A stretch of DNA of 51,632 nt. Origin: Candidatus Uhrbacteria bacterium RIFCSPHIGHO2_02_FULL_46_47 (GTDB lineage Bacteria; Patescibacteriota; Patescibacteriia; GWA2-47-26). The position numbers and the translations under genes were made by a program. Positions 11,221 through 51,581 of the stretch are shown here, in pieces. Location of the stretch: positions 1-51,632 of the forward strand of contig MGDU01000025.1 of NCBI GenBank assembly GCA_001790815.1. Direction: 5' to 3'. The notes beneath the pieces are model-generated. The model saw nothing but the letters and a program-made list of their open reading frames with translations, searched no databases and was not told the DNA's origin. Within the stretch, counting starts at the first letter, position 1, and every line of letters begins with the position of its first letter.

Positions 11221-12300
11221 ATGCTTATTTTGATCGTCGGTTCACAAGGAATGTTGGGGCAAGAATTTGTGAAACAATTGGGTAGCCGCCGGTCTTTAGC
11301 CGGCGCTGAAGTGACCGGTTGGGGCAAGGAAGACATTGATATTACGAATGAAAAGGAAGTAATGCAGAAAATTTGTAGCCGCCGGTCTTTAGCCGGCGCT
11401 AAAGCCAGGTTTGATGTTATTATCAATTGCGCCGCCTACAACAATGTTGACAAAGCTGAAGAAGAGCCGGAAATTGCCAATCTTATCAATGGAGAAGCAC
11501 CCGGCTATTTAGCTCGCGCCGCCGCAGAGTGTGGAGCGATTTTTGTACACTTCTCAACCGACTATGTCTTTAGCGGCAATCGTCCAGTGGGTAAAAATTC
11601 TGCGGCCGCAGAAAATCTGACCGCAGGAGAATATACTGAAGAGGATACGCCAGATCCGATTTCAAAATATGGAGAATCCAAAGCATTAGGGGAATATAGA
11701 GTAAGTACGATTCCTCACGATCCCGCCTCTCAGTCCGTCGCTTTACCATTCGGTTCTGTGGCGCCCATATACTCGGCGGGCAGGCGTGAGGAATCGTCTT
11801 TTTGGTATATTGTGCGCACATCAAAACTTTTCGGTCCTCCCGGCACAGGCGCGACAAGCAAAAAAAGCTTTCCAGAAATGATGATTGGTTTTGCGCGGCA
11901 AAAAGGAAAAATTGAAGCCATTGATAGTGAAGTTGGCTCGCCAACTTATGTGAAGGATTTAGCGGAGGCGACGCTACAACTCCTTGGTTTTCCTCCCCTT
12001 AGGGTAAGGGGAGGTGAGGAGGGGTTACGAACCGCTCATAACTCCCCCCAGCCCCCTCTTACCTTAAGAGGGGGGGCATCCGGCATTTATCACATTACCA
12101 ACAGCGGTTCTTGTACTTGGTATGAATATGCCAAAGCCGCGGTGGAATTTGCTGGTATTAAAGCAGAAGTTGTACCCGTTGGCCCTGATTATTTTCCGCG
12201 CAAAGCCAAGCGCCCGGCAAAAGTTGTGCTTTTAAATACTAAACTCCCGCCCTTGCGTTCATGGCAAGACGCGCTTAAAGAATTTTTGAAGGCTGTATAG
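11221..12300 (+). CDS. rfbD: dTDP-4-dehydrorhamnose reductase
   Basis: NADPH-dependent reductase for the last step of dTDP-rhamnose. LIVGSQGMLGQEFVKQL, the INCAAYNNVDKAEEEP segment, FSTDYVFSGN and the catalytic SKYGESKALGE are clear. Four stretches are repeat-derived and in frame. Two copies of SRRSLAGA come from GCCGGTCTTTAGCCGGC palindromes (11284 and 11376). A tract near 11700-11800 (HDPASQSVALPFGSVAP) is not conserved in the family as I know it. The CCTCCCC element at 11991-12077 encodes PPLRVRGGEEGLRT and on. The TAG stop shares its last base with the left end of the IS that follows. Confidence 0.93.
   Translation: MLILIVGSQGMLGQEFVKQLGSRRSLAGAEVTGWGKEDIDITNEKEVMQKICSRRSLAGAKARFDVIINCAAYNNVDKAEEEPEIANLINGEAPGYLARAAAECGAIFVHFSTDYVFSGNRPVGKNSAAAENLTAGEYTEEDTPDPISKYGESKALGEYRVSTIPHDPASQSVALPFGSVAPIYSAGRREESSFWYIVRTSKLFGPPGTGATSKKSFPEMMIGFARQKGKIEAIDSEVGSPTYVKDLAEATLQLLGFPPLRVRGGEEGLRTAHNSPQPPLTLRGGASGIYHITNSGSCTWYEYAKAAVEFAGIKAEVVPVGPDYFPRKAKRPAKVVLLNTKLPPLRSWQDALKEFLKAV
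11284..11305. repeat. GCCGGTCTTTAGCCGGC palindrome in rfbD, copy 1
   Basis: The palindrome core is repeated at 11376-11399 in the same gene and at 27503-27524. Each coding copy here gives SRRSLAGA. Confidence 0.9.
11376..11399. repeat. GCCGGTCTTTAGCCGGC palindrome in rfbD, copy 2
   Basis: Second in-frame copy 92 nt after the first, again encoding SRRSLAGA. Confidence 0.9.
11991..12077. repeat. CCTCCCC/GGGGAGG palindromic element in rfbD
   Basis: Two nested hairpins (CCTCCCCTTAGGGTAAGGGG, then CCCCCTCTTACC/TAAGAGGGGG). Encodes about 29 in-frame residues between two conserved blocks. Confidence 0.93.
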
Positions 12301-30198: not shown

Positions 30199-31593
30199 AT
30201 GAACAAGAAATTACTAAAATACATATTGAGCCAGGATTGGTACCGGAAAAATTTTGAAGCCACTGCTTTCGCGGATTATCAGTGGCAGGCTCTTTTGCCT
30301 TACCAAAAAAAAGATAAATTTTTTAAAGTGCGTTTGAAAGAAGCGATAATAATCGCTTCCAATTTCCAGGTCAATTGGTTTTGGAATCAGAAGGATTTGA
30401 AACGGGTCAGGGATTGGTTGGTTGCGGAAATTAAGAATGACTCCTTATTTTCTAGAAAATTGGTGCATAAATGGGAACTTCGCTTGAAGACATATCTTAA
30501 ATTATTGGAAAAAGTGAGATCCCTGGACCTGGCCAAGCTCCCGGACCCAGAACTGTTGGAAAATTTTCATTCGCTTTACGATTTTTATCTCAAAACAATA
30601 ACAGTTTCGGTAATCATCGAAGGATTTTCGCTTAACGCCGAGAAGTGGCTGGGCGGGGAATTTCAGCAATTTCTTGCCAAGAAAAAAATGGCGGAAAAAT
30701 CCCGCGAATATTTTTCTTTGCTTACGCAAACCACCAGACCATCTTTTGTCCAGGAAGCGGCCATTGCCAAAAAAAGCGGAATGAACCCCAAAAATCTTGC
30801 TGCTAATTTTTATTGGATTCATTTCAATTACTTGCACATTAAACCTTTGACCGAGACTTTTTTCAAATCATGGCGGCCTGATTCAACGCCTAATTTCAGA
30901 CAGATTAGAGAAAGGAAAAAACAACTAATGCAAAAGATTGGCTTATCAAAAGAATTGAAAAATATTTTTAACGCGGCGGATTTATTCACCTGGCTGCAAG
31001 ACCAGAGGAAAAAACATGCCCTGCTCGCCACGGAATGGATGTATGAGTTTTTATTTGAAGCCGGCAGAAGAAAAGGGGTTGCAAAAGGGCTGCTACTGCG
31101 GGCCTTGCCTCCGGAAATGGGAAAATTACTTAAAAATAGTCCGGATTACTTAAAACAACTTAAAAAAAGAATTGATCCGGTGCTTGTTTATGTAAACGAT
31201 AAGGGCCAGACTTTTGTGAGCGCCGGCAAAATCGGAGCCATAGTTTTAAAGAAGATTTATTCAGTCAAGCATCAGAGCGAATTATCTGGCGCCGCCACTT
31301 TTTTGGGCAAAATCAGGGGCAAGGTTAAGATTGTAAGCAGTGTTAAGGACATGGCAAGATTTAGACAGGGGAATATCTTGGTTGCATCAATGACTCGGCC
31401 GGAGTTTATTCCTATTTTAGCAAAAGCCGCCGCGATTGTGACAGACGAGGGTGGCATTACTTCTCATGCCGCTATCATTTCTCGGGAAATGCGCAAACCG
31501 TGTATCATCGGCACCAAAATCGCCACGCGCGTGTTTAAGGATGGAGATATGGTCGAAGTAGATGCCACAAGGGGCGTGGTGAGGAAAATTTGA
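30199..31593 (+). CDS. Phosphohistidine swivel-domain protein A
   Basis: A 464-aa protein with a helical N-terminal region and a C-terminal PEP-utiliser mobile domain (about 360-464). The catalytic histidine is His423 in TDEGGITSHAAIISRE. GNILVASMTRPEFIPILAKAAA and PCIIGTKIATRVFKDGDMVEVDA complete the swivel fold. In PEP synthase or rifampin phosphotransferase this histidine is phosphorylated by an ATP-grasp domain, which is absent here. The helical part has TTRPSFVQEA and WLQDQRKKH, weak versions of motifs shared with proteins C, D and E. No PEP-binding barrel. Likely partner: the ATP module at 27601. Low-GC, Lys-rich, and free of palindromic insertions. Confidence 0.85.
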   Translation: MNKKLLKYILSQDWYRKNFEATAFADYQWQALLPYQKKDKFFKVRLKEAIIIASNFQVNWFWNQKDLKRVRDWLVAEIKNDSLFSRKLVHKWELRLKTYLKLLEKVRSLDLAKLPDPELLENFHSLYDFYLKTITVSVIIEGFSLNAEKWLGGEFQQFLAKKKMAEKSREYFSLLTQTTRPSFVQEAAIAKKSGMNPKNLAANFYWIHFNYLHIKPLTETFFKSWRPDSTPNFRQIRERKKQLMQKIGLSKELKNIFNAADLFTWLQDQRKKHALLATEWMYEFLFEAGRRKGVAKGLLLRALPPEMGKLLKNSPDYLKQLKKRIDPVLVYVNDKGQTFVSAGKIGAIVLKKIYSVKHQSELSGAATFLGKIRGKVKIVSSVKDMARFRQGNILVASMTRPEFIPILAKAAAIVTDEGGITSHAAIISREMRKPCIIGTKIATRVFKDGDMVEVDATRGVVRKI

Positions 31594-32404: not shown

Positions 32405-33496
32405 ATGGATGAGAGAATACGCGCCATGATTAGAGAGAAGTTACTCGTACGGACATGGGATCATGCTGACTCGCCGCTTTTGTGGATCGAAATGATCTTT
32501 TGGGCAGATATCAAAAAGATGAAACAATATTTCGGTTTTAGCTATGGCGGTCATTATTTTATATCCTTTAATCAGCACACGACATTCTGGAAGAATACAA
32601 AAAGTGAAGCAAGAGCTCGGCAGTTTGGAAGGAGGAAATATAATGATCCGCAATTTGTGCAATGGTATTGCCGAAAAAGCCATGCTCTTGAGAAAAAACT
32701 AGCCGCATGCGTTAAGGAATTACATTTGATCCGCCCATCAAATATTTCTAACAGTGTGCTAGTAAAATATTTTAAGAATTTTTTTGATCACTATTCCGAT
32801 CTTATGGCATTCTACCGATTTTCCAGGCCAGAATTCTATGAAAAAGCACTTGCAGATCAAGCGGTAAAGCTGGTTCTTTTAAGGGAAGTTGGTAAGCGAC
32901 GACTGGCCATGCATCATGCCTGGATGGATGCTTTTAAAGAGGCCGAGCCACTTTTTCTGGCGATTGGGAAAAAGATTAACATGTCTTCTTTGGAGGTTAA
33001 GAATTTTACTGCTCAGGAAGTCCTGATTGCTTTGCATCAAAATGTAACCCCTTACAATATAAAATCACGTCTTCATAGCTTTGAATTTTTATACAAAAAT
33101 CATTCCTATATTATCAATACTAACCTACCAAAATGGAAAGAAATGTTTCGTATGCGCGCGACGGTACAAGGTCAGCCGGCATATAATGGGAAAGTACGCG
33201 GGATTGTGCATGTGGTACAAGAATCACTCAAAGGAGTTTCAATTACACCAAAGGCATTCCCAAAGAATGCAGTGCTAGTAACGGCGATGACTTCACCAGA
33301 TATGCTGCCCATTATGAAACGTGCGCGGGCGTTTATAACTGATGAAGGCGGCATGTTGTGTCACGCCGCGATTGTGGCTCGTGAACTTAAAAAACCCTGT
33401 ATCATCGGTACCAAAATCGCCACCAAAGTGTTTCGTGATGGTCAGAAGGTAGAGGTTGATGCCACAAAAGGAATTGTGCGACTACTTAAGGAGTAA
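32405..33496 (+). CDS. Phosphohistidine swivel-domain protein B
   Basis: A 363-aa protein, the shortest of the five. The C-terminal swivel domain has His320 in TDEGGMLCHAAIVARE, then PCIIGTKIATKVFRDGQKVEVDA. The N-terminal 240 residues are helical and aromatic-rich (FWADIKKMKQYFGFSYGGHYF) but lack the DERK motif of the other members, so substrate or partner may differ. No ATP-grasp or PEP-binding domain is seen. The protein has no repeat insertion. Closely follows an NYN gene. Confidence 0.83.
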   Translation: MDERIRAMIREKLLVRTWDHADSPLLWIEMIFWADIKKMKQYFGFSYGGHYFISFNQHTTFWKNTKSEARARQFGRRKYNDPQFVQWYCRKSHALEKKLAACVKELHLIRPSNISNSVLVKYFKNFFDHYSDLMAFYRFSRPEFYEKALADQAVKLVLLREVGKRRLAMHHAWMDAFKEAEPLFLAIGKKINMSSLEVKNFTAQEVLIALHQNVTPYNIKSRLHSFEFLYKNHSYIINTNLPKWKEMFRMRATVQGQPAYNGKVRGIVHVVQESLKGVSITPKAFPKNAVLVTAMTSPDMLPIMKRARAFITDEGGMLCHAAIVARELKKPCIIGTKIATKVFRDGQKVEVDATKGIVRLLKE

Positions 33497-34860: not shown

Positions 34861-34888
34861 TTGACATAACTTTGTATCGCGGTATAAA
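34861..34888 (+). promoter_or_regulatory. Strong promoter of the regulator, GHKL and swivel-C genes
   Basis: TTGACA (34861-34866), 16-nt spacer, TATAAA (34883-34888, as TATAAAAT). The only strong promoter seen before 38481. Confidence 0.88.
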
Positions 34889-34930
34889 ATAGGGGGTGGT
34901 GATACAGATTAAAAATTATACTTAAAGAAA

Positions 34931-34959
34931 ACACTCCCATGCTTTGGAGTATGGGAGTG
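34931..34959 (+). promoter_or_regulatory. CACTCCCAT hairpin, copy 1
   Basis: CACTCCCAT and ATGGGAGTG arms around GCTTTGGAGT, in the 5' leader 12 nt before the regulator start. Nearly identical copies precede the next two genes. Confidence 0.85.
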
Positions 34960-34970
34960 CTCAAGGTCGT

Positions 34971-35282
34971 ATGGCGCGATATAAAGAAGAAAAACTGCCG
35001 TATGCGGTTCAGGATCGGCTCATGGGCATGTTTTGTGAAACGCTTTGTAAACTGAAGACGAAAAAGGCAGTTCAGGATTTTTTGAAAGATCTTCTTAATC
35101 GGCAAGAGCGCGCGATGCTGATTCGGCGTTTGCTCATTGCTGAAATGTTGCTGGATGGTTATACCTATGGAGAAATTATAAATCAGCTACATTGCGGTAC
35201 TACTACGATCGCGCGTGTGGAGCGCTGGCTTAATTTTGGGCGTGGTGGTTTTAAAAGAGCAGTGACAGCAAAGAAAAAGTAA
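34971..35282 (+). CDS. TrpR/YerC-YecD family DNA-binding regulator
   Basis: A 103-aa all-helical protein: LPYAVQDRLMGMFCETLCKLKTKKAVQDFLKDLLNRQERAML is the TrpR-like helical core, and IAEMLLDGYTYGEIINQLHCGTTTIARVERWL the helix-turn-helix. YerC/YecD proteins are TrpR-fold regulators with uncertain ligands. I chose ATG (MARYKEEKLP); an upstream TTG at 34944 would start in the hairpin. It is first in a transcript with a repeated palindrome before each gene, so it may bind that palindrome; this is inference. Confidence 0.87.
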   Translation: MARYKEEKLPYAVQDRLMGMFCETLCKLKTKKAVQDFLKDLLNRQERAMLIRRLLIAEMLLDGYTYGEIINQLHCGTTTIARVERWLNFGRGGFKRAVTAKKK

Positions 35283-35313
35283 GACACTCCCATGCTTTGG
35301 AGCATGGGAGTGA
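35283..35313 (+). promoter_or_regulatory. CACTCCCATGC hairpin, copy 2
   Basis: Perfect 11-bp arms CACTCCCATGC/GCATGGGAGTG with loop TTTGGA. Starts at the stop of the regulator gene. Confidence 0.87.
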
Positions 35314-35332
35314 TTAGCGGAAGAGGGATGTT

Positions 35333-36841
35333 GTGAAATGGATCGAGGTAACACTTATGATCAAAGGCACGATTAAAGTTACAGTGGAAAAAGGACATCT
35401 TTTAACGCTTGGCGAGCGGATGTACGCCGAATCAATTGAACTTATTCGTGAGCTCGTGAACAACGCCTACGATGCGGACGCGACCGAGGTGTATGTGACC
35501 GTAACGCCAGAGAGTGTGGTGATTGAAGATGATGGGAGCGGCATGGACGAGCAAGGGCTTGCGCAATTCTTTACCGTGGGATCAGAGGAGAAACGTATCC
35601 GTTCAGTTTCGCCAAAGCATGGGCGCAAACGCATCGGACAGTTTGGGATTGGTAAATTTGCCGCGCTTGCCGCGGCGCAGCGTTTTGTTGTAGAAAGCAA
35701 ACGCGGCAACTGGATATATTCAGTAGTGTTTGATCGTAATGAGTGGCAAAAGAGCGATCACTGGGAATTACCAATCTCCAAAGAACCGGCAACTCCGCTC
35801 CATCATGAAGGGACCAAAGTGACGTTAGCAAAACTCACCAAACAATTTAGCATGTCGGATGTGGAACGCTATCTTAAAGAGGCAGTGCCGCTCAAGGCAA
35901 AAAAATTTGCCGTGTACTTAAATGGCAAACGTATTACCGCGCGGTTTATTCCCGGCCGACGCATCTCGGTTAACATCAAAACCATGTACGGCGCGATTGA
36001 AGGCGAAATTGTGCTGGCCGTGCGTACGGGTCTTGTGGAAAAACCCGGAGTGGAGTGTAAAGTAAAACAAGCCCTTATTCGCCGCGATTTCTTTGATTTG
36101 GAGCGAACCCATACCATGGGGCTTAATCGCATTGCCGGAGAAGTGAACGCGGATTTTTTGCCAGTGCTGGGGACCCGCGACGATTTTGTGCGCGATAGTC
36201 CGGAGTTTAAATTATTTTATCAGCTTATGCGCGCGCAATTGGAAAAACTCCTTAAAGACTTAAAGCGGGAATCTGAAAAAAAACATCTGCAAAGAATTAC
36301 CGAAGAATTAAAAGAGGTGTTGAGCCGCGTCCGCTCCGCCCTTGAGCTTAATCCCGATTTGACGCCGTCGGGGCGCGCTATCGCGGCGCGGCGCAAGAGA
36401 ATCGGCACAGCAGCAGGAAGCACTATTGAAGCGCATGCGGTTCCGAGAGACGCCTCGGGGGTGGCAGAGGAGCAATCCGCGGAGGAAAAGAAGGCCGCCA
36501 AAGAAGTTAAAGAAAAGGAACAAAAGCCAAAAGAGACAGGGCCGCCTCCCCCAAAGCCAGAAGTCATCAAGCGTATCCGCCTGAAACAGCTTGGTGTTTC
36601 AGTTGCCCTCGGCGCGCTTGGTGTTGATGGACCAGAGGTTTTTTCACAAGGCAACCTTATCTATATCAATACTGACCATCCTTTGTACCAAGCGCTCTAT
36701 CGTAAAAGAGACCAATTTGAATTGCATCTGCTGCGTCTGATTACTCAAGAAATCGTAAGTATGAAAAAATTGCATTTGCGCGCCAGGGAAGCGTTTGAAT
36801 GGCAAAGTAAGCTTTTAACTGACGCAATTTGCGGTAAATAA
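35333..36841 (+). CDS. GHKL ATPase (HSP90/MutL/MORC-like) with extended C-terminus
   Basis: A 502-aa protein from GTG; an ATG at 35357 (MIKGTIKVTV) is an alternative. The Bergerat ATP fold is complete: N box ELIRELVNNAYDADATEVYV, G1 box IEDDGSGMDEQGL, then KRIGQFGIGKFAALA. A transducer-like part follows (GTKVTLAKLTKQFS, LNRIAGEVNADFLPVLGTRDDF). A charged coiled-coil-like stretch, then a Lys/Glu/Pro-rich linker (about 385-425) lead to a separate C-terminal domain. MORC-type ATPases occur in prokaryotic conflict systems, but this one sits among dikinase-like genes. No repeat insertion. Confidence 0.88.
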   Translation: MKWIEVTLMIKGTIKVTVEKGHLLTLGERMYAESIELIRELVNNAYDADATEVYVTVTPESVVIEDDGSGMDEQGLAQFFTVGSEEKRIRSVSPKHGRKRIGQFGIGKFAALAAAQRFVVESKRGNWIYSVVFDRNEWQKSDHWELPISKEPATPLHHEGTKVTLAKLTKQFSMSDVERYLKEAVPLKAKKFAVYLNGKRITARFIPGRRISVNIKTMYGAIEGEIVLAVRTGLVEKPGVECKVKQALIRRDFFDLERTHTMGLNRIAGEVNADFLPVLGTRDDFVRDSPEFKLFYQLMRAQLEKLLKDLKRESEKKHLQRITEELKEVLSRVRSALELNPDLTPSGRAIAARRKRIGTAAGSTIEAHAVPRDASGVAEEQSAEEKKAAKEVKEKEQKPKETGPPPPKPEVIKRIRLKQLGVSVALGALGVDGPEVFSQGNLIYINTDHPLYQALYRKRDQFELHLLRLITQEIVSMKKLHLRAREAFEWQSKLLTDAICGK

Positions 36842-36843
36842 AA

Positions 36844-36873
36844 ATACACTCCCATGCTTTGGAGTATGGGAGT
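36844..36873 (+). promoter_or_regulatory. CACTCCCAT hairpin, copy 3
   Basis: Same 9-bp arms and the same GCTTTGGAGT loop as copy 1. Ends 11 nt before the swivel C start. Confidence 0.85.
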
Positions 36874-36883
36874 GATGTAGTTT

Positions 36884-38458
36884 ATGAAAAGTTTGTTGCA
36901 GAACCAATTGAAAGGGAAAGCGTGGTATCATCAGCGGTTTGATGGATCGCCGCTTTATTTATTTGCGGTGGGCGAAGGGAAGGTGAAGCGGGATCGACGG
37001 AGGCCGTCCGGAACCGAGGCCGGCGTCAGGGTGTGTTTTTTCAAAGATGGAAAGGCGGATTGGTATCTTGATATGGAGGACGTGCAGCGTGGATCAGAAG
37101 TCATGATTGGTCTTGCCAAGCGCGATCCCCATACTGGCGCAAAACTATTACGCGCGTGGCGGAGCGATGAGCAAGCATTTCAACGATTCTTTGAGCAGTT
37201 TTCGACTATCAAGTTGCGGGCGTTTTCCGATGAAGCGTTGTTCAAGTTCTACAATAGGTACATTAATCTTTTTATCAATCGCATCAGCTCTTCTCCCATT
37301 ATTGATCATTTTGCTCTTGGTACAGACCAATATATTGCAAACATGATCCGGCAAGAAATAGGAAAGATAGAACAAGAAACAGAGTTTACCAAGGTCTTTA
37401 GTATAGCTACCGCACCAACACATCAATCGTTTATCAATGAAGCGGAGATGGAGTTGTTGAAAATTGCGATTGAACATAACCCCTCCCAAATTCCCTCACC
37501 CGGCCTACGGCCACCCTCTCCCTCAGGGAGAGGGGAGGGTGAGGGCAAAAAAGGGGGCAGGGGGAGCTATGGCAAAGAGTTCGAGCAGGCACTAAAGAAC
37601 TACCAGCAAAAGTATTTCTGGATCAAGAATAACTATTTTGATGCACATGTGCTTTCCCAGGCTCATTTTAAGAAAGAGGTTGAACTGTGGAGGAAATCTG
37701 GTGCGGATTTGGAAGTGAAGTATAAGCAGTTACGCGATACGCCGCGACTTAGCGCACAGAAAAAAGCCGCCCTATTCAAAAAGTACAAATTCTCGCGGCT
37801 TTTGCGTACGCTGCTTAAAATTTCCGAAGATTTTACTTGGTGGCAGGATGAGCGCAAGAGATCGACATTTTTGAATATCCATATGGGAGTGCGGATCTTA
37901 GGCGAGATGGCGCGGCGGCGCGGGATTGACCCAGAGCTCACCAAATTTTTTGTACCTAACGAAGTGGAGCGGTGGTTTGTACATGGGAAACCGAGTATGT
38001 CAGAACTGAAAGAACGTCAGAAAGGATGTGGAGTGGTGTCTATTCGTAGCGGATATTCCATCGTGACTGGCAAAGCTATAGAGGCAATGCGGCGCACAAT
38101 GTTTCCACAAAAACAACAAGATGCCGTGCGTGATATTCGGGGTCTTGCCGCCTCAGTGGGAAGGGTAGTGGGGACAGTAAAAATAGTAGATTCAGCGCGT
38201 CAGGTTGGGAAAGTTCAAAAAGGGGATATATTAGTGGCAGTCATGACCCGGCCGGATTATATTGCCGGTCTTAAAAAGGCCGCGGCAGTGGTTACCAACG
38301 AAGGCGGCATTACTTGCCATGCCGCGATTGTTTCGCGTGAGCTCGGCATTCCCTGCGTGATAGGCACCAAGATTGCTACCGAGGTGCTTAAAGATGGTGA
38401 TCTGGTAGAAGTCAATGCTAATCATGGGGTGGTGACGGTGTTAAAGCGAGCGGTATGA
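36884..38458 (+). CDS. Phosphohistidine swivel-domain protein C
   Basis: A 524-aa protein. The N-terminal 370 residues are helical and contain PTHQSFINEAEMELLKIA, KYFWIKNNYFDAHVL and TWWQDERKRS, motifs shared with D and partly with E and A. The C-terminal swivel domain has His479 in TNEGGITCHAAIVSRE (Asn replaces the usual Asp before Glu), then PCVIGTKIATEVLKDGDLVEV. One repeat element (37478-37570) lies in frame in a linker after LLKIAIEHN. Linked to the GHKL gene by a 42-nt gap holding the hairpin. It has no ATP-grasp and no PEP barrel; presumed partner is the module at 27601. Confidence 0.87.
   Translation: MKSLLQNQLKGKAWYHQRFDGSPLYLFAVGEGKVKRDRRRPSGTEAGVRVCFFKDGKADWYLDMEDVQRGSEVMIGLAKRDPHTGAKLLRAWRSDEQAFQRFFEQFSTIKLRAFSDEALFKFYNRYINLFINRISSSPIIDHFALGTDQYIANMIRQEIGKIEQETEFTKVFSIATAPTHQSFINEAEMELLKIAIEHNPSQIPSPGLRPPSPSGRGEGEGKKGGRGSYGKEFEQALKNYQQKYFWIKNNYFDAHVLSQAHFKKEVELWRKSGADLEVKYKQLRDTPRLSAQKKAALFKKYKFSRLLRTLLKISEDFTWWQDERKRSTFLNIHMGVRILGEMARRRGIDPELTKFFVPNEVERWFVHGKPSMSELKERQKGCGVVSIRSGYSIVTGKAIEAMRRTMFPQKQQDAVRDIRGLAASVGRVVGTVKIVDSARQVGKVQKGDILVAVMTRPDYIAGLKKAAAVVTNEGGITCHAAIVSRELGIPCVIGTKIATEVLKDGDLVEVNANHGVVTVLKRAV
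37478..37570. repeat. CTCACCC palindromic element, in frame (swivel C)
   Basis: Nested: outer CCCCTCCC/GGGGGAG, middle CCCTCACCCGGCC/GGGTGAGGG, inner CTCTCCCTCAGGGAGAG. Position matches the insertion site in swivel D. Confidence 0.93.
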
Positions 38459-51528: not shown

Positions 51529-51562
51529 AAGAGGACAGTCCTTCCAAAAAGGACTGTCCTCT
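51529..51562 (+). terminator. Intrinsic terminator after HU
   Basis: AGAGGACAGTCCTT-CCAAA-AAGGACTGTCCTCT perfect stem, followed by TGTATAAT; the trailing T-run is short. Confidence 0.82.
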
Positions 51563-51581
51563 TGTATAATCCGCGTAGCGG

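Follow-up and report, generated by a model that had tools for sequence, protein, structure and literature searches.

Three near-identical 28-bp palindromes in one operon of the window (the whole 51,632-nucleotide stretch analyzed here) very probably serve as DNA operators for the TrpR/YerC-family repressor whose gene lies at 34971–35282. The presence of the palindromes, their uniqueness, the bracketing of the regulator gene, the repeat within each site and a correlation between a recognition-helix residue and site bases are established by the comparisons described below. Together these strongly indicate that the regulator binds the palindromes. Each site is likely to accommodate two repressor dimers, which would lie side by side on overlapping 20-bp sites. 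Operator 1, which follows the promoter and precedes the start codon, would likely mediate autorepression. Operators 2 and 3 lie immediately before the GHKL ATPase and ‘swivel’ genes, where the repressor would hold back transcription; control of individual cistrons at these sites is plausible, either as a roadblock to elongating polymerase or through local promoters.

The palindromes, their genes and the regulator

The palindromes share the sequence CACTCCCATGCTTTGGAG(T/C)ATGGGAGTG, with cores that differ at one base and flanks that are unrelated to one another. No strand is assigned to the sites. Operator 1 (34932–34959) is composed of two 20-bp sub-sites at an 8-bp offset (34932–34951 and 34940–34959), a division based on the sub-site repeat. 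Operator 2 (35285–35312) is a perfect palindrome, with the regulator stop codon 2 nt upstream and the next start codon, a GTG, 20 nt downstream. Operator 3 (36847–36874) has the same sequence as operator 1. The initial annotation had described three near-identical hairpins before the regulator, GHKL ATPase and third swivel genes, and this description holds. Its hairpin starts of 34931, 35283 and 36844 are 1–3 nt off, and the proposed arms of 9–11 bp with loops of 6–10 nt are replaced in each palindrome by a 12-bp stem and the 4-nt loop TTGG. The shorter arms arose because copies 1 and 3 carry a G·T at the tenth stem pair.

All three downstream genes lie on the forward strand. Operator 1 precedes the regulator gene (34971–35282, 103 residues), for which the ATG at 34971 is a more likely start than the mechanically listed TTG at 34944 because relatives have a conserved MARY N-terminus at this position; operator 1 therefore lies entirely upstream of the gene, and its placement before the ATG is common to relatives. 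Operator 2 precedes a predicted target encoding a 502-residue GHKL (HATPase_c_3) ATPase (35333–36841; PF13589, 70.2 bits), for which no full-length NCBIfam equivalog was found at its cut-off. Operator 3 precedes a second predicted target, encoding a 524-residue protein whose C-terminal domain is of the PEP-utiliser mobile (‘swivel’) type (36884–38458; PF00391, 89.6 bits). The best promoter in the region is a σ70-type element on the forward strand (TTGACA-18-TAAAAT, 34861–34890) that matches 11 of 12 consensus positions and predicts, from the consensus match alone, a transcription start near 34897. This promoter is 41 bp upstream of operator 1 and does not overlap it, which counts against the operator reading; a weaker second −10 element (TATACT, 34917–34922) lies nearer the operator. 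Inspection of the sequence at operators 2 and 3 revealed no clear promoter.

The 28-bp pattern, allowing up to three mismatches, has only three matches in the genome (1,022,808 bp in 27 contigs, 100% complete), all in this operon. The initial annotation had noticed no other copy in the window, and the many scattered copies that would have spoken against regulation were not found. The half-site CACTCCCAT occurs seven times in the window, where 0.35 occurrences are expected by chance, and six of the seven are inside the three palindromes; the seventh is a lone half on the minus strand at 37883. A relaxed genome-wide pattern recovered sites of other TrpR-like regulators and two intragenic sites, and no additional site with the sequence of this operon. 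No degenerate site was found at up to three mismatches upstream of the other two swivel genes of the window (A, at 30199, and B, at 32405). Confinement of the motif to the operon is correct for this genome but does not extend to relatives, in which this type of regulator has further sites, including the identical 28-mer in another genus.

The regulator scores 60.5 bits against the Trp repressor superfamily (PF01371, gathering cut-off 27) and 50 bits against the YerC/YecD family (TIGR02531, curated cut-off 42.2). Against the TrpR equivalog (TIGR01321) it reaches 31.4 bits, below the cut-off of 67.25. An AF2 model (pLDDT 88.9) contains six helices with TrpR topology and a helix-turn-helix at residues 66–73/77–89. 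Foldseek identifies 3frw, 3kor and 3g1c as the nearest solved folds, followed by Escherichia coli TrpR (1tro); these nearest structures include YerC/HisR-like proteins. Free Trp is not expected as a ligand in the same pose as in TrpR because the pocket positions G85 and S88 of the E. coli protein correspond to V83 and W86 in a hand alignment. A search of viral contigs for the regulator yielded one weak and partial match.

Bracketing pairs and a candidate recognition code

Three further TrpR-like genes are present in the genome, each with a different palindrome. The comparison set assembled from a class-wide search, a tree and a phylum-wide search contains 81 distinct related genes. A bracketing pair, defined by a single algorithm for all genes as one palindrome just before the ATG and one just after the stop codon, is found for 38–39 of the 81 regulators vs 2 of 404 control open reading frames at the same loci; named relatives belong to Kerfeldbacteria, Uhrbacteria, Falkowbacteria and Nomurabacteria. 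The members of a pair are near-identical, including the centre, and the sequence changes from locus to locus. No pair was detected for 42 of the 81 genes, several of which are of the ordinary HisR type, a point that weighs against the operator reading. The window operon and L166 each have a third copy, placed before another gene. At L218 and L197 the regulator is followed by a perfect palindrome of 48 bp and 44 bp, respectively, much more than two dimers need, which likewise weighs against the reading. At L229 and L147, TrpR-like genes with one in-frame stop codon are still flanked by matching palindromes and appear to be decaying modules.

Alignment of 39 loci gives the half-site consensus (T/C)ACT-nYCA-TRCT-nn, extending from position −14 to the dyad. 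The blocks at −14 to −11 and −6 to −3 are repeats of each other: letter identity within the half-site is 55% at an offset of 8, compared with 19–36% at all other offsets, and the offset-8 identity score is 173 against a shuffled maximum of 124. Base −12 equals base −4 at 31 of the 39 loci (18.9 expected; p ~5e-5 with loci permuted), and where the outer block varies (ACT, GGT, AGT or ACA) the inner block usually varies alongside it. Judged by this repeat, the 28-bp palindrome is two overlapping 20-bp TrpR/HisR-type sites, whose CACT...AGTG-type ends are those of the published HisR motif. In tandem binding by E. coli TrpR the spacing between dimers is 8 bp, and the palindromes provide independent comparative support for this type of binding.

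The first residue of the recognition helix appears to predict a base in both sub-sites. Six loci carry Lys or Arg here, each with G at both −12 and −4. With other residues at this position, G is found at 5 of 41 loci (−12) and 1 of 41 (−4), giving Fisher values of 4e-5 and 7e-7; these statistics ignore kinship and use register and residues assigned by eye. The Lys/Arg loci G019_C38, G237, G114 and the G057/G000_C6 pair lie on separate tree branches, and L211 is outside the tree. A close pair illustrates the correlation, with VTKHTI in L211 accompanied by TAGT..TAGT and VTEHTI in L217 by TACT..TACT. These would be natural specificity switches in which Lys/Arg vs other residues are read as G vs C at two positions within one site. 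The corresponding residue of the window regulator is T77.

At the level of sequence, these comparisons show a TrpR/YerC-like family that appears to re-invent matched repressor–site pairs repeatedly, with a putative protein-to-DNA code. TrpR-like genes reach up to eight copies per genome in the phylum-wide search; in genomes of 0.7–1.5 Mb, the paralog counts include eight in G337, six in G514 and five each in G405, G506, G536 and G559. More tentatively, Patescibacteria may have expanded compact ‘operator-repressor-operator’ modules of TrpR/YerC type, with as many as eight per genome, each flanked on both sides by a double (8-bp-offset) operator of its own. Diversification of the first recognition-helix residue would insulate the paralogs from one another, and each downstream cistron would be acted on separately.

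Probable DNA operators and competing readings

The initial annotation favored regulation and offered operators, RNA hairpins and a local mobile palindrome as explanations; the comparative evidence supports its operator option over RNA hairpins. RNA hairpins within the 5′ UTR and the intercistronic gaps, possibly protein-bound, that adjust how each cistron is translated or processed, or how stable it is, are a very improbable explanation. All three palindromes are in predicted transcribed sequence, 11–20 nt ahead of start codons, and they fold very stably, with z-scores of −5.7 to −7.2 relative to shuffled sequence for 36-nt elements. The one deviating pair in copies 1 and 3 can still form as G·U, and orientation is kept in most pairs: where the centre is asymmetric, 23 pairs have the same orientation and 4 are inverted, a bias left unexplained if the DNA site is purely symmetric. 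However, arm mismatches across the 39 pairs comprise 24 of the G·U type and 28 of the A·C type, which gives no indication that RNA pairing is under selection. Loops vary between loci, and inverted copies occur in four pairs; the loops of L110 (GTGA/TCAC) differ as RNA but are the same as duplex. In five relatives (L146, L230, L226, L187 and L217) a TATAAT-like −10 element is located 23–42 bp downstream of the dyad and the palindrome would therefore not be transcribed from it, and in others the palindrome abuts or overlaps a −10 element. Neither the direct repeat at 8 bp nor the helix-residue code makes sense for an RNA element. An Rfam scan of the window gave no structured-RNA match at the palindromes, its sole match being a tRNA; the scan, the folding and the comparison of G·U with A·C mismatches supported nothing about an RNA element beyond its thermodynamic stability. 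The mismatch pattern, the inverted copies, the sites around −10 elements, the 8-bp repeat and the correlation between helix residue and base thus favor DNA operators over RNA hairpins. The stable hairpins may have an additional effect in the transcript.

A local mobile or replicating palindrome of the REP/MITE kind, with no regulatory role, is extremely improbable. It would account for three near-identical copies with unrelated flanks, and the genome does contain further short palindromes in repeated copies, such as CCTCCCCTTA..TAAGGGGAGG; however, the whole-genome search, with zero copies elsewhere, ruled against it. Related regulators have a palindrome at the same relative position but with a different sequence at each locus, and site bases co-vary with a protein residue. 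Use of the same operators for looping between the sites that flank the regulator gene, in place of tandem dimers and a roadblock, is very improbable. Bracketing pairs are spaced 353–685 bp apart in most loci, as such looping might suggest, but the spacings are highly variable and the third copy, before the last gene, would be left unexplained. Bridging of distant sites is not known for dimers of the TrpR family.

Relation to known systems, swivel genes and other repeats

In Firmicutes, the HisR (YerC) operators at histidine genes each consist of one 20-bp palindrome, cacTTTAnnnnnnTAAAgtg; autoregulation is common and motifs vary between lineages (PMC9413887). That study does not cover phyla of the Patescibacteria type. 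The window regulator resembles HisR as a TrpR-related YerC/YecD protein with a palindromic operator and a CACT half-site. In contrast to the single HisR palindrome, the window site spans 28 bp and contains two 20-bp sites at an 8-bp offset, and the sites bracket the regulator and precede each cistron. The targets (the regulator, the GHKL ATPase and the PEP-utiliser gene) include no his genes. A histidine/HisR reading was rejected, since neither motif length nor neighboring genes fit. E. coli TrpR binds as tandem dimers on operators that contain more than one overlapping site (PDB 1trr; PMC8745587). The regulator shares its fold and helix-turn-helix, and the window sites have overlapping sub-sites like those of the trp operators, with tandem occupancy here predicted from the 8-bp repeat. 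It differs from E. coli TrpR in falling under the equivalog cut-off, in its pocket residues and in its half-site. REP/REPIN families are likewise short, repeated extragenic palindromes, but the window palindrome is undispersed (three copies in one operon) and its sequence is regulator-specific. A literature search pairing TrpR with Patescibacteria yielded no relevant paper, and we found no description of a TrpR/YerC-family form that combines double operators bracketing the gene with diversified specificity. Transcription control in Patescibacteria is little studied, and the sites described here offer a concrete, testable repressor–operator family.

G002, which belongs to another genus of the same family, has a perfect copy of the 28-bp sequence of operators 1 and 3 at C4:11274, between two PEP-utiliser swivel genes. 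The regulator ortholog of G002 is itself followed by a site and then by an ortholog (65% identity) of the window swivel gene. Sites in G043 also adjoin PEP-utiliser swivel genes, and such a gene is next after the C23 regulator of the window genome, suggesting that swivel proteins recur as targets within this regulator subgroup. The three swivel proteins encoded in the window (30199–31593, 32405–33496 and 36884–38458) are homologous, each with its PEP-utiliser domain at the C terminus, an uncharacterised N-terminal part and no ATP-grasp partner; the same family is found in G002 and G043. These findings connect the uncharacterised proteins with a shared regulator in at least three genera. Recurrent neighbors of related regulators include dnaG, rmuC, uvrD, mutM, dut, RNase H, tatD and recG, and equally recurrent are enolase, cysS, glycosyltransferases and ABC permeases. 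A single regulon function was dropped because DNA-metabolism genes are mixed with unrelated ones.

Zero-mismatch family-type 28-bp sites lie within dnaE (L243, G000:C20:64806–64833) and within an mnmA-like gene named by eye (L244, G000:C23:158–185). The dnaE site is identical at 26 of 28 positions, with the same centre, to the operator adjoining the C12 regulator. Both may be intragenic operators or coincidences of coding sequence.

The window also contains other repeats. Small palindromes of the form CCTCCCCTTA-nnn-TAAGGGGAGG are located at 11992, 12052, 15671, 18677, 28462, 41325, 44413 and 44448; they also occur in G002 and elsewhere in the genome and constitute a dispersed repeat family. 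Long perfect hairpins lie near the window ends, at 106–142 and 808–848 (a AGGGCTTAGCCCTG pair) and at 51529–51563 (AAGAGGACAGTCC). Within the third swivel gene, a palindromic low-complexity stretch at 37481–37548 encodes IPSPGLRPPSPSGRGEGEG and looks like a repeat inserted in frame.
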